Below are positions 2,908 through 42,592 of a stretch of DNA of 64,000 bases, one piece after another. The notes below the pieces were generated by a model, which worked only from the letters and a program-made list of their open reading frames with translations, searched no databases and was not told the origin of the DNA. A program made the position numbers and the translations under genes. This DNA comes from Massiliimalia massiliensis (lineage in GTDB: Bacteria > Bacillota > Clostridia > Oscillospirales > Ruminococcaceae), in NCBI RefSeq assembly GCF_900155615.1, contig NZ_FUHT01000003.1:868001-932000 (forward strand), in the 5' to 3' direction. Numbering within the stretch: position 1 is the stretch's first letter; every line of letters begins with the position of its first letter.

Positions 2908-4251
2908 TTACGGAATAGTTGGAACAAGACCAGCCGCAATATCCTGATCAAGAACCTTTTGGGATTCTTCAGAGAATTCCTGAACAGTCATCTGCCCTAA
3001 AAATACTTTTTCTATATTATTGATTTGATACTCGTGTGTTGCTGTTGGCCAAAAAGTCCACTGGCAATATCCTACCATTTCAGGATTTTCTTCCAATTCA
3101 GCAAAGATATCTTTCATTTGTAATATCATAGGGTCAACATCTTCCGAAAAATCTTCAGTCGGGATATTTGTGCAGAAGGGGGACAAGCCTGCCTCAACAC
3201 CCTTGGCCATATTTTTGGTATCACGATAGACATAATCAATGTACTGTGCACATTCATCTTTCACTTCAGAAATAATGTTGATTGCTAAAGATCCTGCGCA
3301 TGCAATGGGCACAACTGCAGACTCTAAATTATCATTAAATTTAGGGTAGTAATCCATACCATAATCAAATGTGCAGTTTTGCTTCATTTGTCCAATCATA
3401 GCAGTAGTATGGAAGAAAATCGGACTCTTACCGCTATAATACAATGACTGTGAATCTTCATTAGAAATTGCATGAGTCTGTTTCTCGCCAATATAACCTC
3501 TCTGCCACCAATCGTTATACATTTCTATTGCTGCAACAAAATCTTCATCTGTATATTTTGCTTCTCCTGTAAGTAATTGTTTAACCCTGTCTCGACCACA
3601 ATAATTGCTATACCATAAAGACAATGCCCAGTCATTTCCCATTATAAAGCCTCCGGTATGATAGCAAATCGGGATTAAGCCTGCATCTTGCGCCTCTTGA
3701 CACATGGTTTCTAATTCGTTAACTGTTTTTGGCACTTCCCATCCATGCTCTTTCATTATGTCATTATTATGCCACATGATAATTGCTTCATACCAGTTTG
3801 GAATACTCATATATTTGCCATCTACTTTGCAGGCCTCTAACGCCCAATCAAACATAATCTCATCCCAATGATATTTTTCAACATATTCTGTCATATCAAC
3901 AAGTCTATCGCTGAAATTTCCAACCGAAGACGGTCCCTCTAATGTCATTAAGTCAGGCCCCTCACCGGCTGCCAGTTGAATTTTCAATACCTGTGTAATA
4001 TCAGGGGTGGGGATAAAGTTAACATCAATGTTAGGGTTTGCTTCTTCGAACGGTTTCACAAGATAATTTTCTACAGCTTCTATTTGATAATCTTGAGTAC
4101 TACGTCCGTCCATCCAATTTATCGTGATTTGTTCTCCGGTCGTTTTTTCTCCATTTGATGTGGAAGAATCATTATTATCGCCGCAGGCAGTAAAACAGCT
4201 GACTGTAGTTACTGTAACCAAAAACGCAGCCAAAATTGATTTTAATTTCAT
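2908..4251 (-). CDS. extracellular solute (sugar)-binding lipoprotein
   Basis: 447-aa family-1 solute-binding protein that captures the sugar outside the membrane. The N-terminus is a lipoprotein signal: basic start MKLK, a hydrophobic stretch, then the lipobox-like FTAC with Cys23 as the lipidated residue, followed by a Ser/Thr/Asn-rich linker. The body has typical family features such as LAAGEGPDLMTLEG and GKYMSIPNWYEAIIMWHN. The ATG at 4251 follows GGAGGTAGTTCA. It is the first gene of the minus-strand uptake operon, transcribed divergently from the YesM/YesN-type regulators, which probably control it. The ligand cannot be named from sequence; the aromatic-rich body fits an oligosaccharide. 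Confidence 0.92.
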   Translation of the reverse strand: MKLKSILAAFLVTVTTVSCFTACGDNNDSSTSNGEKTTGEQITINWMDGRSTQDYQIEAVENYLVKPFEEANPNIDVNFIPTPDITQVLKIQLAAGEGPDLMTLEGPSSVGNFSDRLVDMTEYVEKYHWDEIMFDWALEACKVDGKYMSIPNWYEAIIMWHNNDIMKEHGWEVPKTVNELETMCQEAQDAGLIPICYHTGGFIMGNDWALSLWYSNYCGRDRVKQLLTGEAKYTDEDFVAAIEMYNDWWQRGYIGEKQTHAISNEDSQSLYYSGKSPIFFHTTAMIGQMKQNCTFDYGMDYYPKFNDNLESAVVPIACAGSLAINIISEVKDECAQYIDYVYRDTKNMAKGVEAGLSPFCTNIPTEDFSEDVDPMILQMKDIFAELEENPEMVGYCQWTFWPTATHEYQINNIEKVFLGQMTVQEFSEESQKVLDQDIAAGLVPTIP

Positions 4252-4308
4252 TGAACTACCTCCTATTATTAAACTTGATTATGCATATACGGTACAGATC
4301 TCTACCTA

Positions 4309-4336
4309 TTAGATGATTTCGCTAAAAATCATCTAA
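4309..4336 (-). promoter_or_regulatory. inverted repeat just downstream of the uptake-operon promoter
   Basis: The arms TTAGATGATTT and AAATCATCTAA (11 bp, perfect) flank a 6-base centre. Given the promoter at 4348-4376 on the same strand, the repeat covers roughly +5 to +32 of the transcript. It could be an operator placed to block transcription or a 5' leader hairpin. It has no T-run and so is not a terminator. Confidence 0.5.
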
Positions 4337-4347
4337 TTTCTATGATA

Positions 4348-4376
4348 ATTATATTAATGAAATATAATTATTTCAA
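4348..4376 (-). promoter_or_regulatory. sigma-A-type promoter of the sugar uptake operon
   Basis: Read on the minus strand: TTGAAA (4376-4371), a 17-bp spacer, and a perfect TATAAT (4353-4348). It lies about 100 bp upstream of the binding-protein start in a very AT-rich intergenic region and is oriented toward that gene. Confidence 0.65.
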
Positions 4377-4503
4377 GTCTGTTTATTTATGTTTTTAATG
4401 TATAAAATTTTCAGATTTATAAAAAAAGTCAGAAATAATAGTTTCAACTGCAAATAAAAATTTAAAATTTTCAACAATGTAAATTTTTTCCAATATATTG
4501 TAT

Positions 4504-4532
4504 TTGATTTTTGGAGACTTGACCGTTACAAT
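4504..4532 (+). promoter_or_regulatory. promoter of the sensor kinase/response regulator operon
   Basis: TTGATT (4504-4509), a 17-bp spacer and TACAAT (4527-4532) are followed by a Shine-Dalgarno AGAAAGGA and the kinase GTG start at 4561. Together with the opposite promoter at 4348-4376 this accounts for the 309-bp divergent intergenic region. Confidence 0.55.
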
Positions 4533-4560
4533 AAAATATAAGAAAGGATTGTGATAGGCA

Positions 4561-6354
4561 GTGAGACCGTTTTCGAGATTTAAAATCACACTTAGATGGT
4601 ATTTAACGCTGGGTGTTACCAGTCTGATTATATTATCAGTTGCAACTTTTTTAATATTCCCCACACGCAAATATTTATCTTTATTTGAACAACAAACACA
4701 GGGATATGCAAACAATATTGCCAATCAAATAGCTGCAAATATTGCAGATACATTAACCGAAATCGATTTTAAAACGACAAATCTCATTAAGGAACCATTG
4801 ATATGGAATTTTCTAAAAAGAGATCTTTCTGATAAAGAAGCCAAACAACAATTTGAAATGATTATTTCTCAATATTTTAGTTCTACTGATTATTACTACA
4901 TAGATTCCATTGAAATCTACGGAAAAGAAGACTCCAGATTTTATTCTTACGGAAAGCTCAAGTCAAAAATTGACAATCCTTTTTCGAGCGCAGAATACAA
5001 ACAGGCAATCAATTATCCCCTACAGTTATGCTGGCTGGGATATAATCAGAAACTAGATTGCTTAGACACAGTCCGATTGATATATGATACTAATACATAT
5101 CAAGTCACTGGATTCATCGTTTTAAGATTCTCGCCAAACTATTTATATGATAAGGTATATACATCCAGTAAGGAGGAAAAATTTGACATATCAAATTTAA
5201 TCATTGTAAGCGAACAAAATACAATTTTAGGGGCGAAAAACAGCAGCCTTCTTGGAACGCTACTTCCTAATTATTCGATAGAAAAATTGGAAAAATCTTC
5301 CGGACTTTACCAGTATAAAAACAAGGTTATCAGTTATCACTTTCTGAAAGATAAAATTACAAAATATCCATATCGAAACTGGGTTGTACAAGTGGAAATA
5401 GAAAGAGATGTCTTATACAAAGAAATCAATCAAATTATATATTTCTCATATTTTATTGCATTTCTCATTGTCCTTCTCGGCATTTGGGGTGCCAGACTTG
5501 GTTCCTTTGTGGTTACAAAACCGATTGTAAATTTAGTTTTCGGCATGAAACAAGTGCAGGAGGGAAACTTAAAAACACAATGGACGACCAAATCCAGAAT
5601 CATTGAAATTAGTTTTTTAGGGCAGAGTTTTAATCAAATGTCCAGAAATCTAGATGAACTAATTGCCAAAGAATACCAGGAACAACTTCTGCTGAAGGAC
5701 CTGCAGTTGGAAAATTTGCAAGCTCAAATTAATCCACATTTTCTTTTTAATACACTACAGTTAATCAGTTGGACTGCCTCACAATATGAGGCTGAGGATG
5801 TGTGTAACATGATCTATAGCCTAAGTTATATGCTTGAGAAAGACCTTGAGCGGAAAGGAGATCATGTCAGTTGCTTAGAAGATGAAAGAACATATATTCA
5901 ACACTATGCTTATATCATTGATAATAAATATCAGGGAAGGATTCATATTGATTGCCATTTTCCACAAGAACTATTACAAGCTAAAATCCCCAAATTGATT
6001 CTCCAACCTTTTATTGAAAATTCTATTGTTCACGGACTGAGCGGTCAAACTAAATCTGGAATAGTTGACATCAGTGCAGTGCAAGAGCAGAAAAACCTAA
6101 TTATAACAATTAAAGATAATGGTGTGGGTATGGGGACTGAACAAATAGAACAGGTTTCCTCTGCAGAAGAATCAAAGGGGCACCATATTGCATTACAAAA
6201 TATTCAACATCGTATAAAAATACTTTATGGAGAAAAATATGGTTTTACTATTAACAGCCAGCCTTTTCATGGGACAGTTGTAACCATTAAAATTCCGTTA
6301 GAAATTATGCAAGGAGAAGAAAAAAATGATGAAGATATTGATTATCGAAGATGA
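4561..6354 (+). CDS. YesM-family sensor histidine kinase
   Basis: 597-aa membrane kinase. One membrane segment lies near residues 14-33 and an extracytoplasmic sensor region follows to about 290. A second segment lies at about 292-314, then HAMP to about 370. The His_kinase core carries the phosphoacceptor His393 in QAQINPHFLFNT. The ATPase has an N-box LQPFIENSIVHG (about 481-492) and a G-box KDNGVGMG (about 517-524). Kinases of this class sense extracellular sugars or glycans, often with a binding protein. The GTG at 4561 is the only start upstream of the first helix. The 3' end overlaps the response-regulator gene by 29 bp. It is divergent from the sugar ABC operon, its likely target. Confidence 0.92.
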   Translation: MRPFSRFKITLRWYLTLGVTSLIILSVATFLIFPTRKYLSLFEQQTQGYANNIANQIAANIADTLTEIDFKTTNLIKEPLIWNFLKRDLSDKEAKQQFEMIISQYFSSTDYYYIDSIEIYGKEDSRFYSYGKLKSKIDNPFSSAEYKQAINYPLQLCWLGYNQKLDCLDTVRLIYDTNTYQVTGFIVLRFSPNYLYDKVYTSSKEEKFDISNLIIVSEQNTILGAKNSSLLGTLLPNYSIEKLEKSSGLYQYKNKVISYHFLKDKITKYPYRNWVVQVEIERDVLYKEINQIIYFSYFIAFLIVLLGIWGARLGSFVVTKPIVNLVFGMKQVQEGNLKTQWTTKSRIIEISFLGQSFNQMSRNLDELIAKEYQEQLLLKDLQLENLQAQINPHFLFNTLQLISWTASQYEAEDVCNMIYSLSYMLEKDLERKGDHVSCLEDERTYIQHYAYIIDNKYQGRIHIDCHFPQELLQAKIPKLILQPFIENSIVHGLSGQTKSGIVDISAVQEQKNLIITIKDNGVGMGTEQIEQVSSAEESKGHHIALQNIQHRIKILYGEKYGFTINSQPFHGTVVTIKIPLEIMQGEEKNDEDIDYRR

Positions 6355-7897
6355 AGAAGGAATTAGGAATAATATGCGTACGGCTTACGACTGGGAACAA
6401 ATGGGGTGTGAATTATGCGGAATTGTTGCCAATGCGCTTGAAGCTGTAGAAATTTGCTTGACATATCATCCAAATTTGATCATTTCCGATATTGTTATGC
6501 CAGGGATTGACGGTCTTACATTCCTAAAATACATTAAAGAACGAAATCCAGATATTCATTTTATTATAATGACCGGACATCGTGAATTTGAGTATGCGAA
6601 AAATGCGGTGAATTTTGGAGCGGATGCCTTTATGCTTAAACCAATCCACTACCAAGAACTCGCTCAAATTATTCTGAAAATCAGTGCTGCACTTCGGAAT
6701 CAAAATGAAAAAGAGAGAAAACAATATGAAAAAGAAGGTGTCTTGCGAAATTTGTTAGAAGGCAGGCTTAACAACGAAATGAGCCCCGATAGTTCTGTAT
6801 ATTCTATACTTCAGAAATACCAAAATCCTTACTGCATCGCTGTTTTAGAACCGGATGGTGAGGCGTATTGCACTCCGCAATATATACAGGGGTTACTTTC
6901 TGTGTGTATTGATCTAAATGTTGGAGATAATTTCTATTTTTTAAAAATGAACTATGATCAGATTGTAGCTGTTATTTCTATTTCCTGTGGCATAGAAGAA
7001 TGGAAAAATTCGATATATGATTATTTTATAGTTCTGCAACAGCGGATTCAAGATATTCTTAAGATATCTGTTTCAATTGGAATCAGCGAGCCAATATCAG
7101 GACATCAGAATATGCAGGAAGGATATCTGCAGGCCAAAAAATCTCTTAGCAATCGTTTTTTTAGTGGGTTTAACAGCGTTCATTTTGCTGCCGGTGAAGA
7201 AGATGACGATTTTCCGGATTATTATCAAATACTTGATATACAACAATCACTTTTTGACCTATTACAATATTCCTATGGTGTTCATTTCACAGAGAAAATT
7301 GGTGATTTATTTGAACAAATGATCCAAAATCTCGGTCGAAATCGCTCATTCATTAAAAGTTCAATTTTAATACTGGTTACATTATGTGCAAAACACATCT
7401 TTAGTGAAAATAAGCGGCAAATGGCGTTATTCTTAGAACGTCATGCTAATTTTCAAGCGATTATATCCAGTGAAAATATGGATAACTTAAAAGGTGTGTT
7501 CCTCTCTGTTTTTTTGGATTTAAGCGAGTATATTTCTGTGAAAAAACACACAGATAAACAAATCATCATCGATCGTATTCTGCAATATATAGAGGATAAC
7601 TATGCTTCAAACATAAGCTTAAATGATGTTGCAAAAGTGGTATTTTTATCTCCAGGTTACCTGAGTTCTCTGATCCCAAGTATAACTGGGAATAATTTTA
7701 CTGAAATTTTGACACAAATCAGAATTAAGCATGCGATTGAACTGATGAAGCAGAGTCAGATAAAAAACAGTGTCATTGCGCATAAAGTTGGATTTAATCA
7801 ACCGCAATATTTTAGCCATGCTTTCAAAAAATTAACGGGGTATACCCCGACAGAATATCGGCAGACATATCTTACGAGTATTTCAAATCATCAATAA
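6326..7897 (+). CDS. YesN-family response regulator with AraC-type DNA-binding domain
   Basis: 523-aa regulator. The N-terminal receiver domain has the acidic pocket IIEDEE and phosphoacceptor Asp55 in LIISDIVMPG, with the conserved Lys near residue 110 (MLKPI). A long middle region of unknown fold follows. The C-terminal AraC/XylS pair of helix-turn-helix motifs spans about 412-515 (NDVAKVVFLSPGYLSSL and AHKVGFNQPQYFSHAFKKLTGYTPTEYR). The start at 6326 follows AAGGAGAAGAAAAAA. It should be phosphorylated by the overlapping YesM-type kinase and activate the divergent sugar uptake operon. That target is inferred from the arrangement. Confidence 0.93.
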   Translation: MMKILIIEDEEGIRNNMRTAYDWEQMGCELCGIVANALEAVEICLTYHPNLIISDIVMPGIDGLTFLKYIKERNPDIHFIIMTGHREFEYAKNAVNFGADAFMLKPIHYQELAQIILKISAALRNQNEKERKQYEKEGVLRNLLEGRLNNEMSPDSSVYSILQKYQNPYCIAVLEPDGEAYCTPQYIQGLLSVCIDLNVGDNFYFLKMNYDQIVAVISISCGIEEWKNSIYDYFIVLQQRIQDILKISVSIGISEPISGHQNMQEGYLQAKKSLSNRFFSGFNSVHFAAGEEDDDFPDYYQILDIQQSLFDLLQYSYGVHFTEKIGDLFEQMIQNLGRNRSFIKSSILILVTLCAKHIFSENKRQMALFLERHANFQAIISSENMDNLKGVFLSVFLDLSEYISVKKHTDKQIIIDRILQYIEDNYASNISLNDVAKVVFLSPGYLSSLIPSITGNNFTEILTQIRIKHAIELMKQSQIKNSVIAHKVGFNQPQYFSHAFKKLTGYTPTEYRQTYLTSISNHQ

Positions 7898-10073: not shown

Positions 10074-10700
10074 TTACAGATGAATGTCGAAGATATGTTC
10101 TAATTTAGGTATTAAAATAATTTCATCACAACTTATTTCAATACGCTCAAGGTAATTCTTTACCGTTACATCGTCAAATTTTTCTATTTCAAGGTAATTA
10201 CATATGATGTTCTTTATTTCGTTTTCTGAAATAGTATAAATATTTTGGCAGGTTGCCTGTCTTCCGTTATCCACTCTGTCCGCACATCGCCATACAATAT
10301 TGCCGTCTTTTCTTGTAATGCGCCGGTAATTTTTTCCGCACTCCCCGCAAACTAAAAGACCGCTCAGTACATCATTGGAGTTGTACCGAACGGTCTTTCG
10401 TTTATGATCAGAAGATTGGTTTGTCCTCTTTTGTTTTTCAAGCTGTGCTTTCACATATATTTCAGGAGAGACTATATGGGTGTATTTTTGATTGGATAAC
10501 AGATTATCAATAGCCTGAACAGTCCATTTATCTTTTCCTGATGGAGAAGCGATCTTTTCATGAAACAGATACGCTGCTATTCTGTTCAAACTCAGTCCCT
10601 CAAGATAGAGGTGATAGATCAGTAGGACTGTTTTTGCTTTTTCTTTGTTGATTCGGATTTCTCCGTTTATATCTTTCAAATATCCATACGGAATTATCAT
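10074..10700 (-). CDS. serine recombinase-like protein lacking the catalytic domain
   Basis: 208-aa protein carrying only the C-terminal half of a large serine recombinase. It has the Recombinase domain (PYGYLKDINGEIRINKEKA, YLEGLSLNRIAAYL, WTVQAIDNLLSNQKY) at about residues 2-80. A zinc ribbon follows at about 115-160 (LVCGECGKNYRR...WRCADR...ATCQN). The resolvase catalytic domain with its active serine is absent. The ATG at 10700 follows AAAGGAGCGAATGTT; the Shine-Dalgarno lies inside the longer frame, so the shorter start is right. Stand-alone proteins of this shape occur in clostridial elements next to full recombinases, so this could be a real accessory protein or a remnant. No complete integrase is in the window. 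Confidence 0.75.
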   Translation of the reverse strand: MIIPYGYLKDINGEIRINKEKAKTVLLIYHLYLEGLSLNRIAAYLFHEKIASPSGKDKWTVQAIDNLLSNQKYTHIVSPEIYVKAQLEKQKRTNQSSDHKRKTVRYNSNDVLSGLLVCGECGKNYRRITRKDGNIVWRCADRVDNGRQATCQNIYTISENEIKNIICNYLEIEKFDDVTVKNYLERIEISCDEIILIPKLEHIFDIHL

Positions 10701-10751
10701 AACATTCGCTCCTTTCAAACATGATTATTTTGATGTTTCACTTGACGTTAA

Positions 10752-10804: not shown

Positions 10805-10863
10805 CGTTCTATTTATAAATTTATCAGCAGATTTCTGCTCAAAATCGCATTTTTTACCTTAAA

Positions 10864-10910
10864 AATAGATAAACCTGTTTCATTTTATCTTTGAAACAGG
10901 TTTATCTATT
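10864..10910 (-). terminator. rho-independent terminator (hairpin 2)
   Basis: Perfect 19-bp arms (AATAGATAAACCTGTTTCA and its complement) with a 9-base loop. On the minus strand a T5 run follows. Confidence 0.6.
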
Positions 10911-10946
10911 CTGTGTTAGGACGTCACTCTGATAGCGGAATATATA

Positions 10947-11086: not shown

Positions 11087-11296
11087 CTATACCATTTGTA
11101 GTGATGATATTTGTGCTAGTAGATAAGCATCCTTGTTGGAATTTTTAACTTCTAGTCGTTCTAGGATATGCTGTTCCGTTTCTGGACTCCAGTAAATCTT
11201 CAGCTTATTTTTAGTTCTAGTAATTGCCGTATAGAAAATATTATGAGTAATACGCTCTTCGGTTTCATTTGTAATAACAATTTTTACTGAATCATA
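11087..11296 (-). pseudogene. C-terminal fragment of a superfamily I (UvrD/RecD-like) helicase gene
   Basis: A 69-codon frame without a start codon, preceded by an in-frame stop at 11299-11297. It contains VKIVITNETEERITHNIFYTAITRTKNKLKIYWSPETEQHIL. The NIFYTAITRTKNKLKIYW segment is the motif VI region of superfamily I helicases of the AAA/RecD-like type (usual form FYTAITRAK). The rest of the helicase is gone. It therefore marks the end of a deletion that removed most of this gene. Confidence 0.65.
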
Positions 11297-11355
11297 TTAT
11301 ACCGATAGGTAAACCTTGGAATTAAGCTAAAACTTCCTGTTTTTTGTCAAAACCC

Positions 11356-11384
11356 TTGTTTTCGTTGATAGTTTATGCTACAAT
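11356..11384 (+). promoter_or_regulatory. promoter of the DUF4180 gene
   Basis: TTGTTT (11356-11361), 17-bp spacer, TACAAT (11379-11384). The ATG at 11375 overlaps the -10 box and so cannot be the start of the downstream gene, which supports the TTG at 11417. Confidence 0.55.
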
Positions 11385-11416
11385 ATAGCACAATTCTGTC
11401 AGAAGGAGGGATAATT

Positions 11417-11779
11417 TTGACTATTGAGAAAGTTGTGAGAAATAACACCGTCTGCGCCGTAGTGCACAGCGAAGATAAGGTAATAACAGATACTTCTTCT
11501 GCTCTTGACTTGTTAATGAGTGCAAAATATGAGGTAGGAACAAAGAATATTGTTATCAGTAAATCATTGATTGCCGATAATTTCTTCATTCTTAGCTCTG
11601 GATTTGCTGGCGAGATGCTTCAAAAATACATCAATTACGGTGGCCGTATCGCTATTTATGGCGATTATTCCCACTATACCAGTAAACCTTTGCACGATTT
11701 CATTTATGAAAGCAACAAGGGTAGCAACGTTTTCTTCGTGTCTACTCTTGAAGAAGCAGTTGAAAAACTTGCTAAATAA
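11417..11779 (+). CDS. DUF4180 domain-containing protein
   Basis: 120-aa protein that spans a full DUF4180 domain: SALDLLMSAKYEVGTKNIVISKSLIADNFF, then LSSGFAGEMLQKYINYGGRIAIYGDYS, and FIYESNKGSNVFFVSTLEEAVEKL. The start is the TTG at 11417, 6-7 bases after AAGGAGGG and just downstream of its own promoter. It is the only plus-strand gene of the island and is a complete transcription unit with promoter and terminator. The biochemical function of DUF4180 is not known to me. The fold looks like an alternating alpha/beta domain, with no catalytic motif I can name. Confidence 0.85.
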   Translation: MTIEKVVRNNTVCAVVHSEDKVITDTSSALDLLMSAKYEVGTKNIVISKSLIADNFFILSSGFAGEMLQKYINYGGRIAIYGDYSHYTSKPLHDFIYESNKGSNVFFVSTLEEAVEKLAK

Positions 11780-11797
11780 ATCTCACGTTCCATCTTG

Positions 11798-11826
11798 GCG
11801 AGTACTTATCGGGTACTCGCTTTTTT
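11798..11826 (+). terminator. rho-independent terminator of the DUF4180 gene
   Basis: GCGAGTAC and GTACTCGC (8 bp) with a 7-base loop, followed directly by T6. It starts 19 bp after the stop codon. Confidence 0.85.
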
Positions 11827-11845
11827 GGTTCTTTTAATGCTTAAT

Positions 11846-12149
11846 TCGTCCGGCTTTTCCCCCGGTCCACACCGTGCGTGCGACTTTCACCGCACACGGC
11901 GTTCCATCGTTTCACTTAATATCACTTTAACATCACAATTTTACAAGATTTCAGCATTTATTCGCCTTGAGGATTTTACTCTCGGCTGATTGCAGGTAAT
12001 CCTGCGAGTTCCCTTAAGTGATTAAGCTTTTTGAGTTGCTTGTCATTCAACTTGAGTAAACCCAAATAGAAATCTATTGTGCTTTTCTTCGTAGAATGTA
12101 CCAGTTTATGCACATCTTCCAGTATAAGCACAAGATTGTTATAACCGTC
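11846..12149 (-). mobile_element. 3' remnant of a group II intron
   Basis: On the minus strand, 11905-11869 folds into a hairpin of the domain V type: AACGCCGTGTGCGGTGAAAG then TCGCACGCACGGTGT, with the GTGAAAGTCGCAC core common to bacterial introns. Just upstream, codons 205-261 of the frame ending at 11976 read DGYNNLVLILEDVHKLVHST, then LGLLKLNDKQLKKLNHLREL and AGLPAI. That is the usual C-terminal HNH-endonuclease end of an intron-encoded reverse transcriptase. Reverse-transcriptase and maturase domains and the 5' half of the ribozyme are absent. A 5'-truncated copy from incomplete target-primed reverse transcription, or a later deletion, could both give this. The edges are approximate. 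Confidence 0.7.
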
Positions 12150-12761
12150 TTTTTTGTAGTATTCTAAAATGAATTTCTCGTATAATCGGCACATTCGCTG
12201 CTCATCTATGAAATCCATCAGTTTCACGGAGCCATCCGAGTTGGTCTGTAGAAGCCCTTTGATAACTAAGTAGCAGATAGAAATTAGCATCCGATACATC
12301 TGGTTATTCCGGTTGTATTGCTGACTCCAGTTTATCATATAAGGATCAAGTGTATCTACCTCACCAAAGAAAACCAGTAACTTGCGGAGTTCTTTTTTTC
12401 GGCTTTTCGCAATATCTGACCGGATAAGAAGTTCCATCGTTGTCTTAATGATTTGATTCAGGTAGGAATTGGTAGAGAAATCATCATAAGTACAAACCAT
12501 CTGACGTTTCAGCATAGTGCGAGCCTTAACGGATTCAGTTATCTCTATCCGGCCACGCAAAGCAGATAGTTGTTCGGAATGTTCAATGTATTCACGACTT
12601 ATTCCCTGTTTCAACTGCCTTGAGACACCTTTGGCTAATATCGCTGCGCAAAGATCTGCAATATTATCGAATTTTTCTGTCTGTATACTCTTGAATCCTT
12701 GCTCGTTTAAAACTTGGAAGGCGTATGAAAGCATATAGAAGATGTTCTTTATCGGTATCAA
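11976..12761 (-). pseudogene. mcrC: mcrC truncated and fused in frame to group II intron ORF tail
   Basis: Codons 1 to about 204 match the N-terminal part of McrC, the nuclease partner of McrB: IPIKNIFYMLSYAFQVLNE, LRGRIEITES, DDFSTNSYLNQIIK, YEKFILEYY. The C-terminal nuclease domain (METDI ... LIVDAKYY in Escherichia coli McrC, about 140 residues) is missing. In its place are some 57 residues from a group II intron protein. The TTG start at 12761 overlaps the mcrB stop (TTGA), as in a normal coupled mcrBC operon. Without the PD-(D/E)XK residues the product cannot cut DNA in the usual way, so I call it a pseudogene. Confidence 0.8.
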
Positions 12762-14239
12762 TTAATAGCACTCCTTAAATTGCTAACCCAGTTCTTCACC
12801 TTCGTCGGCTCATCAAACCAGTACTCCTCTAGCAGGGGGATAATCTCAAATTCGATAATTTCCGACAAAGTCTGGTCGGTAGCCTCTTTTAAATTACAGA
12901 AGTAACTATGGCCAATACAGAAGCCCTCACCGAGCGATTCATCGGCGGAGACTGCTTCGTTGAGCGTCTGAATCGTCGCAATCAGACGGTCAAACTTTAA
13001 GCTACCAAGGTTCTCTTGGTAATCTCTAAAACCTTTAGTTTCAAATCCCGGCAACATCCTATAGAAAGCAAAGCGCCTACGGAGTGCGTAGTCAAGCATC
13101 GCCAAGCTCCGGTCTGCCGTATTCATCATCCCGATAATATAAAGGTTTTTAGGAACGGAGAATTTCTCATTTGAGTATAGCAACTGCAAGCCAATGCCAC
13201 GTTTATCATTTTCAATCAACATAAACAGTTCACCGAAGATCTTGCTCAAGTTTCCACGGTTGATCTCATCAATGATAAAGAAATAATCATTCTCGCTGTC
13301 ATCCTGTGCCTTCTTGCAGAAATTGTAGAATGCACCAGCTTTTCGTTCGAAGCCGTTTTCGGTCGGACGATAGCCCATGATAAAGTCCTCGTAAGAATTA
13401 TCTCCGAACATCTCGGAGGTGAACTGCGACACAGAGGCTTCAAAGTCAAAGTACACGCAGTCTTCAATACAGCCCTCGTTATGGAGCTTGGCAATGCGGT
13501 TTGCTTCGGATTTGTAAATAGGCAGACTGATCCATTCCGCGCTGCCTTCGGTTTCATCGGCGCTGTTCACCGGAGCTTCCGCTACCTTTAAGCGAAAGGC
13601 AAACCACTCGGACGGCTTTTCTTCGGACGGAAGTGTCCTTCCGTCATAGATTTCCGGCAGTTCATATTCTCCGGCGACCACATAAAACCCATTCACAAAC
13701 ACACCGCCCTCGTTTTCTCTCTGCAGCTTTCCGATCTGCTTTTTATCCAGCAGATACAGGGCATTATCGGGAACACTGCTTACATCCTCATGCATATCGT
13801 TTTCGATAACAAACTCACCGAGCTGCTCATCATTGCCAACAGAAGCCGCAATCATAATCTCATCCAGCCCATAGGTGGTATTGATTAAATCCTTTATACT
13901 GATGATTTCGCCCTCATAGTTTTCGGGAATAATTCTGTCGATTACCGCCTGCAGCACAAGCTGTTCTTCAAAACCCAGGGAATCAAGCCTTTTGGCAAAG
14001 AAGTTCAGTTCGTCCAGCGTTGGAGAATCCAGACGGACATCTGCAAGCTCCGGTATAAGCTCGCAGTTCAGAATCGTGATTTCTCTGTATCCGTCTTTTC
14101 TGCCGGTATCCCTTGATTTTTGCAGAGCGTCACGGATTTCGTAATCCTCGGCTGGCAATCGAAGATCGGCGTAATAATATCCGTCCCGTCCGGGATATTC
14201 CGTTACCATTTCAATTGTCATCTGTTTTTTCATCTGCAT
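12758..14239 (-). pseudogene. mcrB: chimera: ArdA-like N-terminal region fused to McrB C-terminal GTPase half
   Basis: 493 codons in one frame. Residues 1-281 look like a conjugative-element accessory protein related to ArdA antirestriction proteins (ITILNCELIPELADVRLDSP, LDELNFFAKRLDSL, TYGLDEIMIAASVGNDEQLG, YEL-PEIYDG). Residues 282-493 match McrB from SYEDFIMGYRP onward: Walker B FFIIDEINRGNLSKIFGELF, the GMMNTADRSLAMLDYALRRRF segment and FCIGHSYFC near the end. The McrB DNA-binding domain and the Walker A loop that binds GTP are absent. The switch is abrupt, near position 13396. The better start is the ATG at 14233, 6 bases after GGAGGA; the ATG at 14239 touches the Shine-Dalgarno. The likely origin is a deletion joining two same-strand genes. 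Confidence 0.75.
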
Positions 14240-14248
14240 TCCTCCGTC

Positions 14249-14962
14249 CTACATGGACATGGTCGGCGCAATTGTTTCCTCCGGCCATTCGGTTTTCATT
14301 TGGAAATGCTCATCATGAAACAGATCTGAACGGATATATGTGATTTCCTGTCCGAGAAAATCCTCCGCGCTGATTTCAGAGCCTCCGATCATGAGGAATT
14401 TCAGCGTACCGTTTAGAAGCTGCTGTCCCTGTTCTGCTGACAGCCGGATATCTCCGTCCGGCGTTCGGATTTCCGCTTCAGATTTCGGGCATTCCATAAA
14501 AAATCCACGAAGGGTATTCCGCAGCTTTTCTTCCTCTGCTTCACGAATCGCCGCTTCCTTCAAAGCCTTGCAGACAAGGTCGCCGAAGCTGTCCTCGTCC
14601 ATACACATGGTTCTGAAACGGCTGCCGAAATCTGCAAGCAGGGAGAGGTCGCCGGCATAACAGAAAAATCCGCCTGCTTCGCAGTCAAAGCTGATTTTGC
14701 TGAGACTGGCATCGTTTTCAAAGGCTTTTTTGAACACAGATTCCCATTCGTATCCGCGGCCGTGTGTGTACAGTCCTCGTTCCTCTATGGAATCGCCAAT
14801 CTGCTCGGCGTATCGGTTGAAGACGCTCTGACCGAAGTCGGCATATTCTTTCGGTAAAAAAGAGAGCGGGAGACACAGGCTGAACTCTCCGTTTTCATGA
14901 TCTACGAGATAGAAGGGAGCATTGTCACGGTCAAATGCCTCGATTTTTTGTTTGTTATCCAT
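14249..14962 (-). CDS. conjugative-element accessory protein, 237 aa, unknown function
   Basis: Soluble acidic protein. I recognise no catalytic motif. The N-terminus (DNAPFYLVDHENGEFSLCLP) is beta-rich and the middle (HGRGYEWESVFKKAFE, FDCEAGGFFCYAGDLSLLADFG) resembles uncharacterised proteins of clostridial Tn1549-like elements. It ends in APTMSM, a form of the [ML]-x-M tail shared by five proteins of this block. The ATG at 14962 overlaps the methyltransferase stop by 8 bp and is preceded by AAAGGATG, so translation is coupled. It lies between the methyltransferase and the ArdA-like/McrB chimera. Confidence 0.75.
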   Translation of the reverse strand: MDNKQKIEAFDRDNAPFYLVDHENGEFSLCLPLSFLPKEYADFGQSVFNRYAEQIGDSIEERGLYTHGRGYEWESVFKKAFENDASLSKISFDCEAGGFFCYAGDLSLLADFGSRFRTMCMDEDSFGDLVCKALKEAAIREAEEEKLRNTLRGFFMECPKSEAEIRTPDGDIRLSAEQGQQLLNGTLKFLMIGGSEISAEDFLGQEITYIRSDLFHDEHFQMKTEWPEETIAPTMSM

Positions 14963-42254: not shown

Positions 42255-42384
42255 CCTGCAATACGAAACACCGGCAGGGAGAAAGATCCCTGTCAGGCTG
42301 TGATGCAGACTATACCCTTCATACACTGTGAAGTTACAGCCATCCGCAAAGCGGAGCATAACGGCAGATATCCCGACTAAAACT

Positions 42385-42520
42385 TCATCGTTGGCTTTCG
42401 CCTTCCCGGATTGGATAAAATCCAGTGGCTTGCAGGCTTGTCCCCGCGTGAAAGCCTCCTCAGTTCATACGGTAGCAGGACTGTCCGGGATTCGCACCCG
42501 AGTTCCCTTTTAAGAAAATA
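42385..42520 (-). ncRNA. cobalamin riboswitch upstream of cbiMNQO
   Basis: Minus-strand leader with the class hallmarks in order: AAAGGGAACTCGGGTGCGAA then TCCCGGAC, GTCCTGCTACCGTA, a GGAGG element, the B12 box AGCCACTGG, and GGGAAGGC. The expression platform is the terminator at 42223-42254. Binding of adenosylcobalamin should favour termination. Limits are approximate; further helices continue to about 42260. Confidence 0.88.
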
Positions 42521-42592
42521 GGGATATTCTCCCATATTTCACCGTTATTCAACATAAATAGTTTGGAACTGTTTTCGTTTTTTCGCAATTTT

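Follow-up and report, generated by a model that had tools for sequence, protein, structure and literature searches.

What does the end of a group II intron protein do at the end of a restriction gene, where does that intron stop, and how did it come to lie there? These questions are raised by a truncated mcrC gene in a 64,000-nt stretch of Massiliimalia massiliensis (GCF_900155615.1, NZ_FUHT01000003.1 positions 868,001-932,000, forward strand), referred to below as the window. An initial annotation had read the gene as mcrC cut by a 5'-truncated intron insertion ending at 11846, the 3' exon having been lost later. An intron remnant joined to mcrC was confirmed; the proposed history and the right-hand limit were not. 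The locus is very probably explained by a group II intron that carries an antisense gene of the DUF4180 family in the loop of its domain VI (D6), was inserted in a helicase gene, and was later joined to mcrC by a deletion. The passenger gene in the domain VI loop, which lies outside the part covered by that annotation, is what is new here.

An intact relative and the 3' end of the intron

Domain V (D5), suspected earlier from a hairpin at 11869-11905, was recovered by covariance search (Rfam RF00029, 51 bits against a gathering score of 40, E-value 4e-7, 11904-11808, minus strand) and was the sole group II intron match in the window genome. The intact relative that the initial annotation had called for was found in Flavonifractor sp. 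AGMB03687 (L010), where the insertion site could be defined in recD2. It matches window positions 11295-12152 at 91.5% identity, through the end of the gene for the intron-encoded protein (IEP), domain V, the passenger gene (cargo) and the 3' end. The Flavonifractor intron spans 3411 nt (positions 3444-6854 of L010) and contains a GTGCGAC start at 3444, domains I to IV matching RF02004 at 99.5 bits, a reverse transcriptase (RT)-HNH protein of 657 amino acids (aa; RVT_1, 4204-6177), and domain V at 6249 (RF00029, 49.3 bits). In its domain VI loop, which a 9-bp stem closes, lies an antisense DUF4180 gene (6375-6779) with its own ribosome-binding site and terminator, and the intron ends in ...TTTACCTATCGGTAT at 6854. 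When the flanks of 3444-6854 were joined by script, RecD2 read ...AYAITVHKAQGSE|YRAVILAVSEGAPMLLTRGVLYTAITRAR unbroken, with YRAVILAV after the joint, which places the 3' boundary beyond the DUF4180 gene. This restoration of frame concerns recD2 in Flavonifractor; in the window the 5' exon is gone. No convincing single match was found for the pairing of exon- and intron-binding sites (EBS/IBS) of the Flavonifractor intron.

In the window the 3' quarter of this element remains, at the codon equivalent to that in recD2 but in another helicase gene, with the following features:

11869-11905, minus strand: domain V of the group II intron (RF00029; also present in the minimum free energy (MFE) fold of the 607-nt 3' part)
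11299-11866, minus strand: domain VI, its apical loop holding the passenger gene; 3' splice boundary at 11299 and bulged branch-point A at 11306 (alignment, fold, covariation)
11839-11847, minus strand: 5' arm GAATTAAGC of the 9-bp stem closing the insert (direct reading, MFE fold)
11319-11327, minus strand: 3' arm GCTTAATTC of the same stem (MFE fold)
11417-11779, plus strand: passenger gene, a DUF4180 protein of 120 aa from a TTG start at 11417, antisense to the intron (Pfam PF13788, E-value 6e-38)
11403-11409, plus strand: ribosome-binding site AAGGAGG of the passenger gene (direct reading)
11797-11826, plus strand: intrinsic terminator of the passenger gene, in the domain VI loop
11092-11298, minus strand: 3' exon, the C-terminus of a superfamily 1 (SF1) helicase (PDC-S53-like), beginning in the codon of HKAQG-E|Y (P0001, 70-76% identical to the helicases of L100 and L102)

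The MFE fold of the whole 607 nt of the window contained the exact domain V hairpin, the domain VI helix with A 11306 unpaired, and the 9-bp stem around the insert. In 25 introns, standard pairing held for 97.5% of cells over the 13 pairs of domain VI, and double changes numbered 44, compared to 11.6 in shuffles and at most 12 in slid controls; the window has a C-G pair at a position that is mostly G-C in the other introns. The only 17-mers on both strands of the 64 kb that pair fully with the domain VI 5' strand are its own complement and 11315-11299. Furthermore, the window intron shares with sister introns the canonical end TTACCTATNNNTAT in its last 20 nt, which pair with this strand. The spacer from the branch-point A to the 3' splice site is 7 nt, and no extra segment of the domain VII kind separates the end of domain VI from the splice site, the insert being inside the domain VI loop. 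In 38 distinct relatives, the segment running from the first base of domain V to the last base of the intron was mostly 85 nt long and did not exceed 123 nt in the other measured ones; only the window and Flavonifractor introns reach 606 nt. For one further intron (L229), no end could be recognised in the first 900 nt or up to where its locus stopped. The closest sister without cargo (L218), 79% identical over the matched part and inserted at the same recD2 position, has a distance of 85 nt.

Among the hallmarks of mobile RT-encoding group II introns, the window copy retains domain V and a domain VI with a bulged A near the 3' end. The GUGYG 5' end, domain I and the RT protein are present in Flavonifractor and deleted from the window copy, which is dead.

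Probable movement of the intron with its passenger gene

The two loaded introns lie in different host genes of two bacterial families, recD2 in Flavonifractor and a PDC-S53-like helicase gene in the window. The insertion site is the codon of HKAQG-(S/L)-E, and the next residue is tyrosine in both host genes and phenylalanine in the cargo-less L218. The helicase 3' exon of the window and recD2 are cut at one and the same motif, so the host of the window intron was a helicase gene. An intact relative of this helicase (L204) matches the PADLOC candidate defence model PDC-S53 at 1312 bits and adjoins a type I restriction system, named from the sequences there. The occurrence of the loaded intron in two different host genes of two families is evidence for movement with cargo, and comparison of the two copies indicates that intron and cargo probably moved together. 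The likely interpretation is a natural group II retrotransposon that ferries an independently expressed host gene, antisense in its domain VI loop, and still splices and moves.

During splicing, domain VI presents the branch point and changes position between the first and the second step. The intron would spread by retrohoming and carry the cargo gene along, with the tip of domain VI tolerating a long insert, provided that the stem closes, because the tip points away from the catalytic core. The cargo would be transcribed separately, from the opposite strand, and its ribosome-binding site, TTG start and terminator all lie within the domain VI loop; sigma-70-like hexamers are present, not clearly above chance. 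Between the window and Flavonifractor, 30 of the 40 differences in the gene fall at third positions, with a ratio of nonsynonymous to synonymous substitution rates (dN/dS) of 0.07-0.15, and judged by this codon pattern the gene is under purifying selection. The AlphaFold model of the protein had a predicted local distance difference test (pLDDT) score of 96, and most of the best PDB matches were STAS proteins (top Z 8.5 for 4xs5, 7.5 for RsbS), with a best Foldseek E-value of only 0.014. This resemblance to STAS proteins such as RsbS is suggestive only. The cargo would probably encode a STAS-like regulatory protein useful to the host or to the element.

The cargo is more diverged than the flanking intron parts, as might be expected had the passenger gene entered the domain VI loop twice independently, or been captured by recombination, with the loaded intron itself immobile. 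Such an origin is improbable, as the two copies do not differ in the borders of the insert, in the 9-bp closing stem or in the 3' strand of domain VI, and the two cargo proteins are 93% identical to each other and at most 74% identical to any other DUF4180 protein seen.

Several observations count against movement of the loaded intron as a unit, or against the history proposed for the window. At third positions, the cargo differs at 30 of 120 sites and the IEP fragment at 4 of 58 (p = 0.004), and the two introns show no difference in the 125 nt, domain V region included, that separate the IEP stop codon from the domain VI 5' strand. Given the greater third-position divergence of the cargo, it may have been exchanged between introns since the two copies split. 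Approximately 1,000 distinct genomes and the further collections that were searched yielded only two loaded copies, so that movement with cargo rests on one comparison. In addition, mcrBC genes adjoining intact helicase relatives were not found in six loci, and an intact ancestor of the window locus was not found.

No third loaded intron turned up when the class, order, families and genus to which the two hosts belong were searched, and an exact-pattern scan of viral contigs for the segment from domain V to the domain VI 5' strand gave no match. Plasmid and phage collections yielded matches to domain V or to DUF4180 alone, never together. The one DUF4180 match in viral contigs lies in a phage tail module, outside any intron; there (L098:3532-3894) it is an extra gene among the tail genes and adjoins an acetyltransferase-like gene.

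The loaded intron shares with RT-encoding HNH group II introns (e.g. Enterococcus ltrA introns on plasmids, approximately 50% aa identity) the GTGCGAC start, domains I to V, the RT and HNH protein, and the bulged A seven bases before the 3' end, but differs in having approximately 520 extra nt with a foreign gene in the domain VI loop. The RT open reading frame (ORF) of known group II introns sits in domain IV (PMC9294222). Bacillus introns with a 3' extension of 53-70 nt (domain VII; PMC3261151, PMC4424553) likewise have extra 3' sequence that moves with the intron. However, known 3' extensions come after domain VI (PMC3261151), whereas the present insert lies inside the domain VI loop, leaves the 7-nt spacer in place and carries a gene. 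LAGLIDADG group II introns (PMC13190283) also hold a non-RT gene in a peripheral ribozyme loop; their ORFs occupy domains IV, III or IB and replace the RT gene (PMC13190283), which the loaded intron keeps, its extra gene being antisense in domain VI. In a Tn5 screen of Ll.LtrB, fragmentation of domain VI was not tolerated (PMC3410883). The literature within reach of the search, which left out most of the subscription literature, contained no account of a gene lodged in domain VI of a group II intron and no mention of DUF4180 together with group II introns. If the interpretation is correct, the domain VI loop is a cargo site not previously described and a natural design for cargo carriage, and group II introns carry ordinary genes between bacterial families. 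If the intron is still mobile, the tip of domain VI accepts large inserts and would offer a second cargo site for intron-based tools.

Limits of the intron and its joint with mcrC

The covariance search placed the end of domain VI at 11808. This candidate end was rejected after alignment with the intact Flavonifractor copy, which sets the true 3' end at 11299; the Rfam 3' strand at 11808 is a chance pairing with the terminator of the antisense gene. The covariance search had thus ended the window intron 500 bases too early, a correction to its annotation, and the intron does not stop shortly after domain V, as the initial limit of 11846 implied, but approximately 520 bases further on. A border near 11808, together with the wide occurrence of DUF4180 genes without introns, would suit a degenerate intron end at about 11808-11840 beside a convergent DUF4180 gene and an unrelated helicase fragment. 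This is very unlikely, because the layout, both borders included, is found again in another family and a different host gene, only a border past DUF4180 restores the recD2 frame, and the final 20 nt carry the sister-intron end and pair with the domain VI 5' strand.

On the other side of the intron fragment, the features are as follows:

11976-12152, minus strand: 3' end of the IEP gene, last 58 codons, HNH end (97% aa identity to residues 599-656 of the Flavonifractor IEP)
12146-12152, minus strand: breakpoint between mcrC and the IEP gene, with AAAGA in common (CAAAAAAGA in mcrC, GGCAAAGAT in the intron); the homology of both partners stops here
12148-12761, minus strand: 5' part of mcrC, codons 1-205, TTG start, without the nuclease part (90% aa identity to the McrC of L002)
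12758-14239, minus strand: second chimera, an ICE-type protein (codons 1-280) in frame with a C-terminal part of McrB (codons 282-493) (sequence comparison)

The ORF at 11976-12761 (minus strand) corresponds to McrC only for codons 1-205 (NF007277 profile positions 6-212 of 353, E-value 2e-76) and lacks the C-terminal nuclease domain of a full-length McrC, scoring 257 bits against a cut-off of 338. Compared to the intact McrC of L002 (346 aa), the McrC part of the window protein ends at residue 205, and approximately 140 residues are missing, the nuclease part among them. Over codons 204-261, the protein instead matches the C-terminus of the Flavonifractor IEP at 97% identity. A genome search found no second mcrC piece anywhere in the window genome. 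The initial annotation was therefore right that McrC runs in frame into the HNH end of an intron protein, that the nuclease part and a second mcrC exon are absent, and, on the alignment it had proposed, that codons 205-261 match intron proteins and not McrC.

Had a 5'-truncated intron copy been retro-inserted into mcrC and the mcrC 3' exon then been lost, mcrC would pass directly into the intron and no mcrC 3' part would remain, as is observed; a genome search for intron 5' parts also came back empty, without a positive control. There is little to recommend this reading, since the 3' end of the intron and an exon after it are intact at 11299/11298, and the 5' joint falls within the IEP gene, where 5 bases of microhomology to mcrC are seen. 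The exon thought to be lost is present at 11298-11092 and comes from the helicase gene, not from mcrC. Because it begins at the same motif as recD2 in Flavonifractor and L218, the intron most likely never sat in mcrC.

Homology to mcrC ends at 12148 and homology to the intron at 12152. The AAAGA common to both is what a deletion or rearrangement mediated by microhomology would leave, and by its sequence the joint is most likely a breakpoint of this kind with 5 bases of microhomology. According to the deletion history preferred here, mcrC would have lost its 3' part in the window genome, the helicase gene its 5' part and the intron its 5' three quarters, leaving a nuclease-less McrC fusion still in frame.

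The mcrBC piece is broken on both sides, with both joints in frame and free of stops. In the chimeric mcrB, codons 1-280 are 72% identical to an ICE-type protein (L191) whose own ORF runs to 524 aa, and Walker A and the DNA-binding part are missing. The window thus resembles McrBC type IV restriction in its N-terminal McrC and C-terminal McrB parts, 90% identical to the intact L002 system, and differs in having lost the McrC nuclease domain and the McrB N-terminal half with Walker A. Although both chimeras are open, a functional new McrC-HNH protein rather than debris is hardly credible, given the losses from both Mcr proteins, an HNH piece of only the last 58 residues, and a chance of approximately 1 in 9 for two in-frame joints, from which function need not follow.

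Just past the helicase remnant, 10074-10718 (minus strand) encodes a serine recombinase-like C-terminal part without the catalytic domain. Next to the second chimera, an Imm51-like protein (14249-14962, minus strand, E-value 1e-8) lies amid ICE genes and is missing from the same place in the related locus L191. Elsewhere in the window, a near-perfect palindrome of approximately 68 nt (AAATAGATAAACCTGTTTCA...TGAAACAGGTTTATCTATT) occupies 10855-10922 and by chance scored as a microRNA family. A cobalamin riboswitch (42346-42561, minus strand, 91 bits) precedes a cobalt transport operon, and the opposite strand carries a long cluster for cobalamin synthesis.
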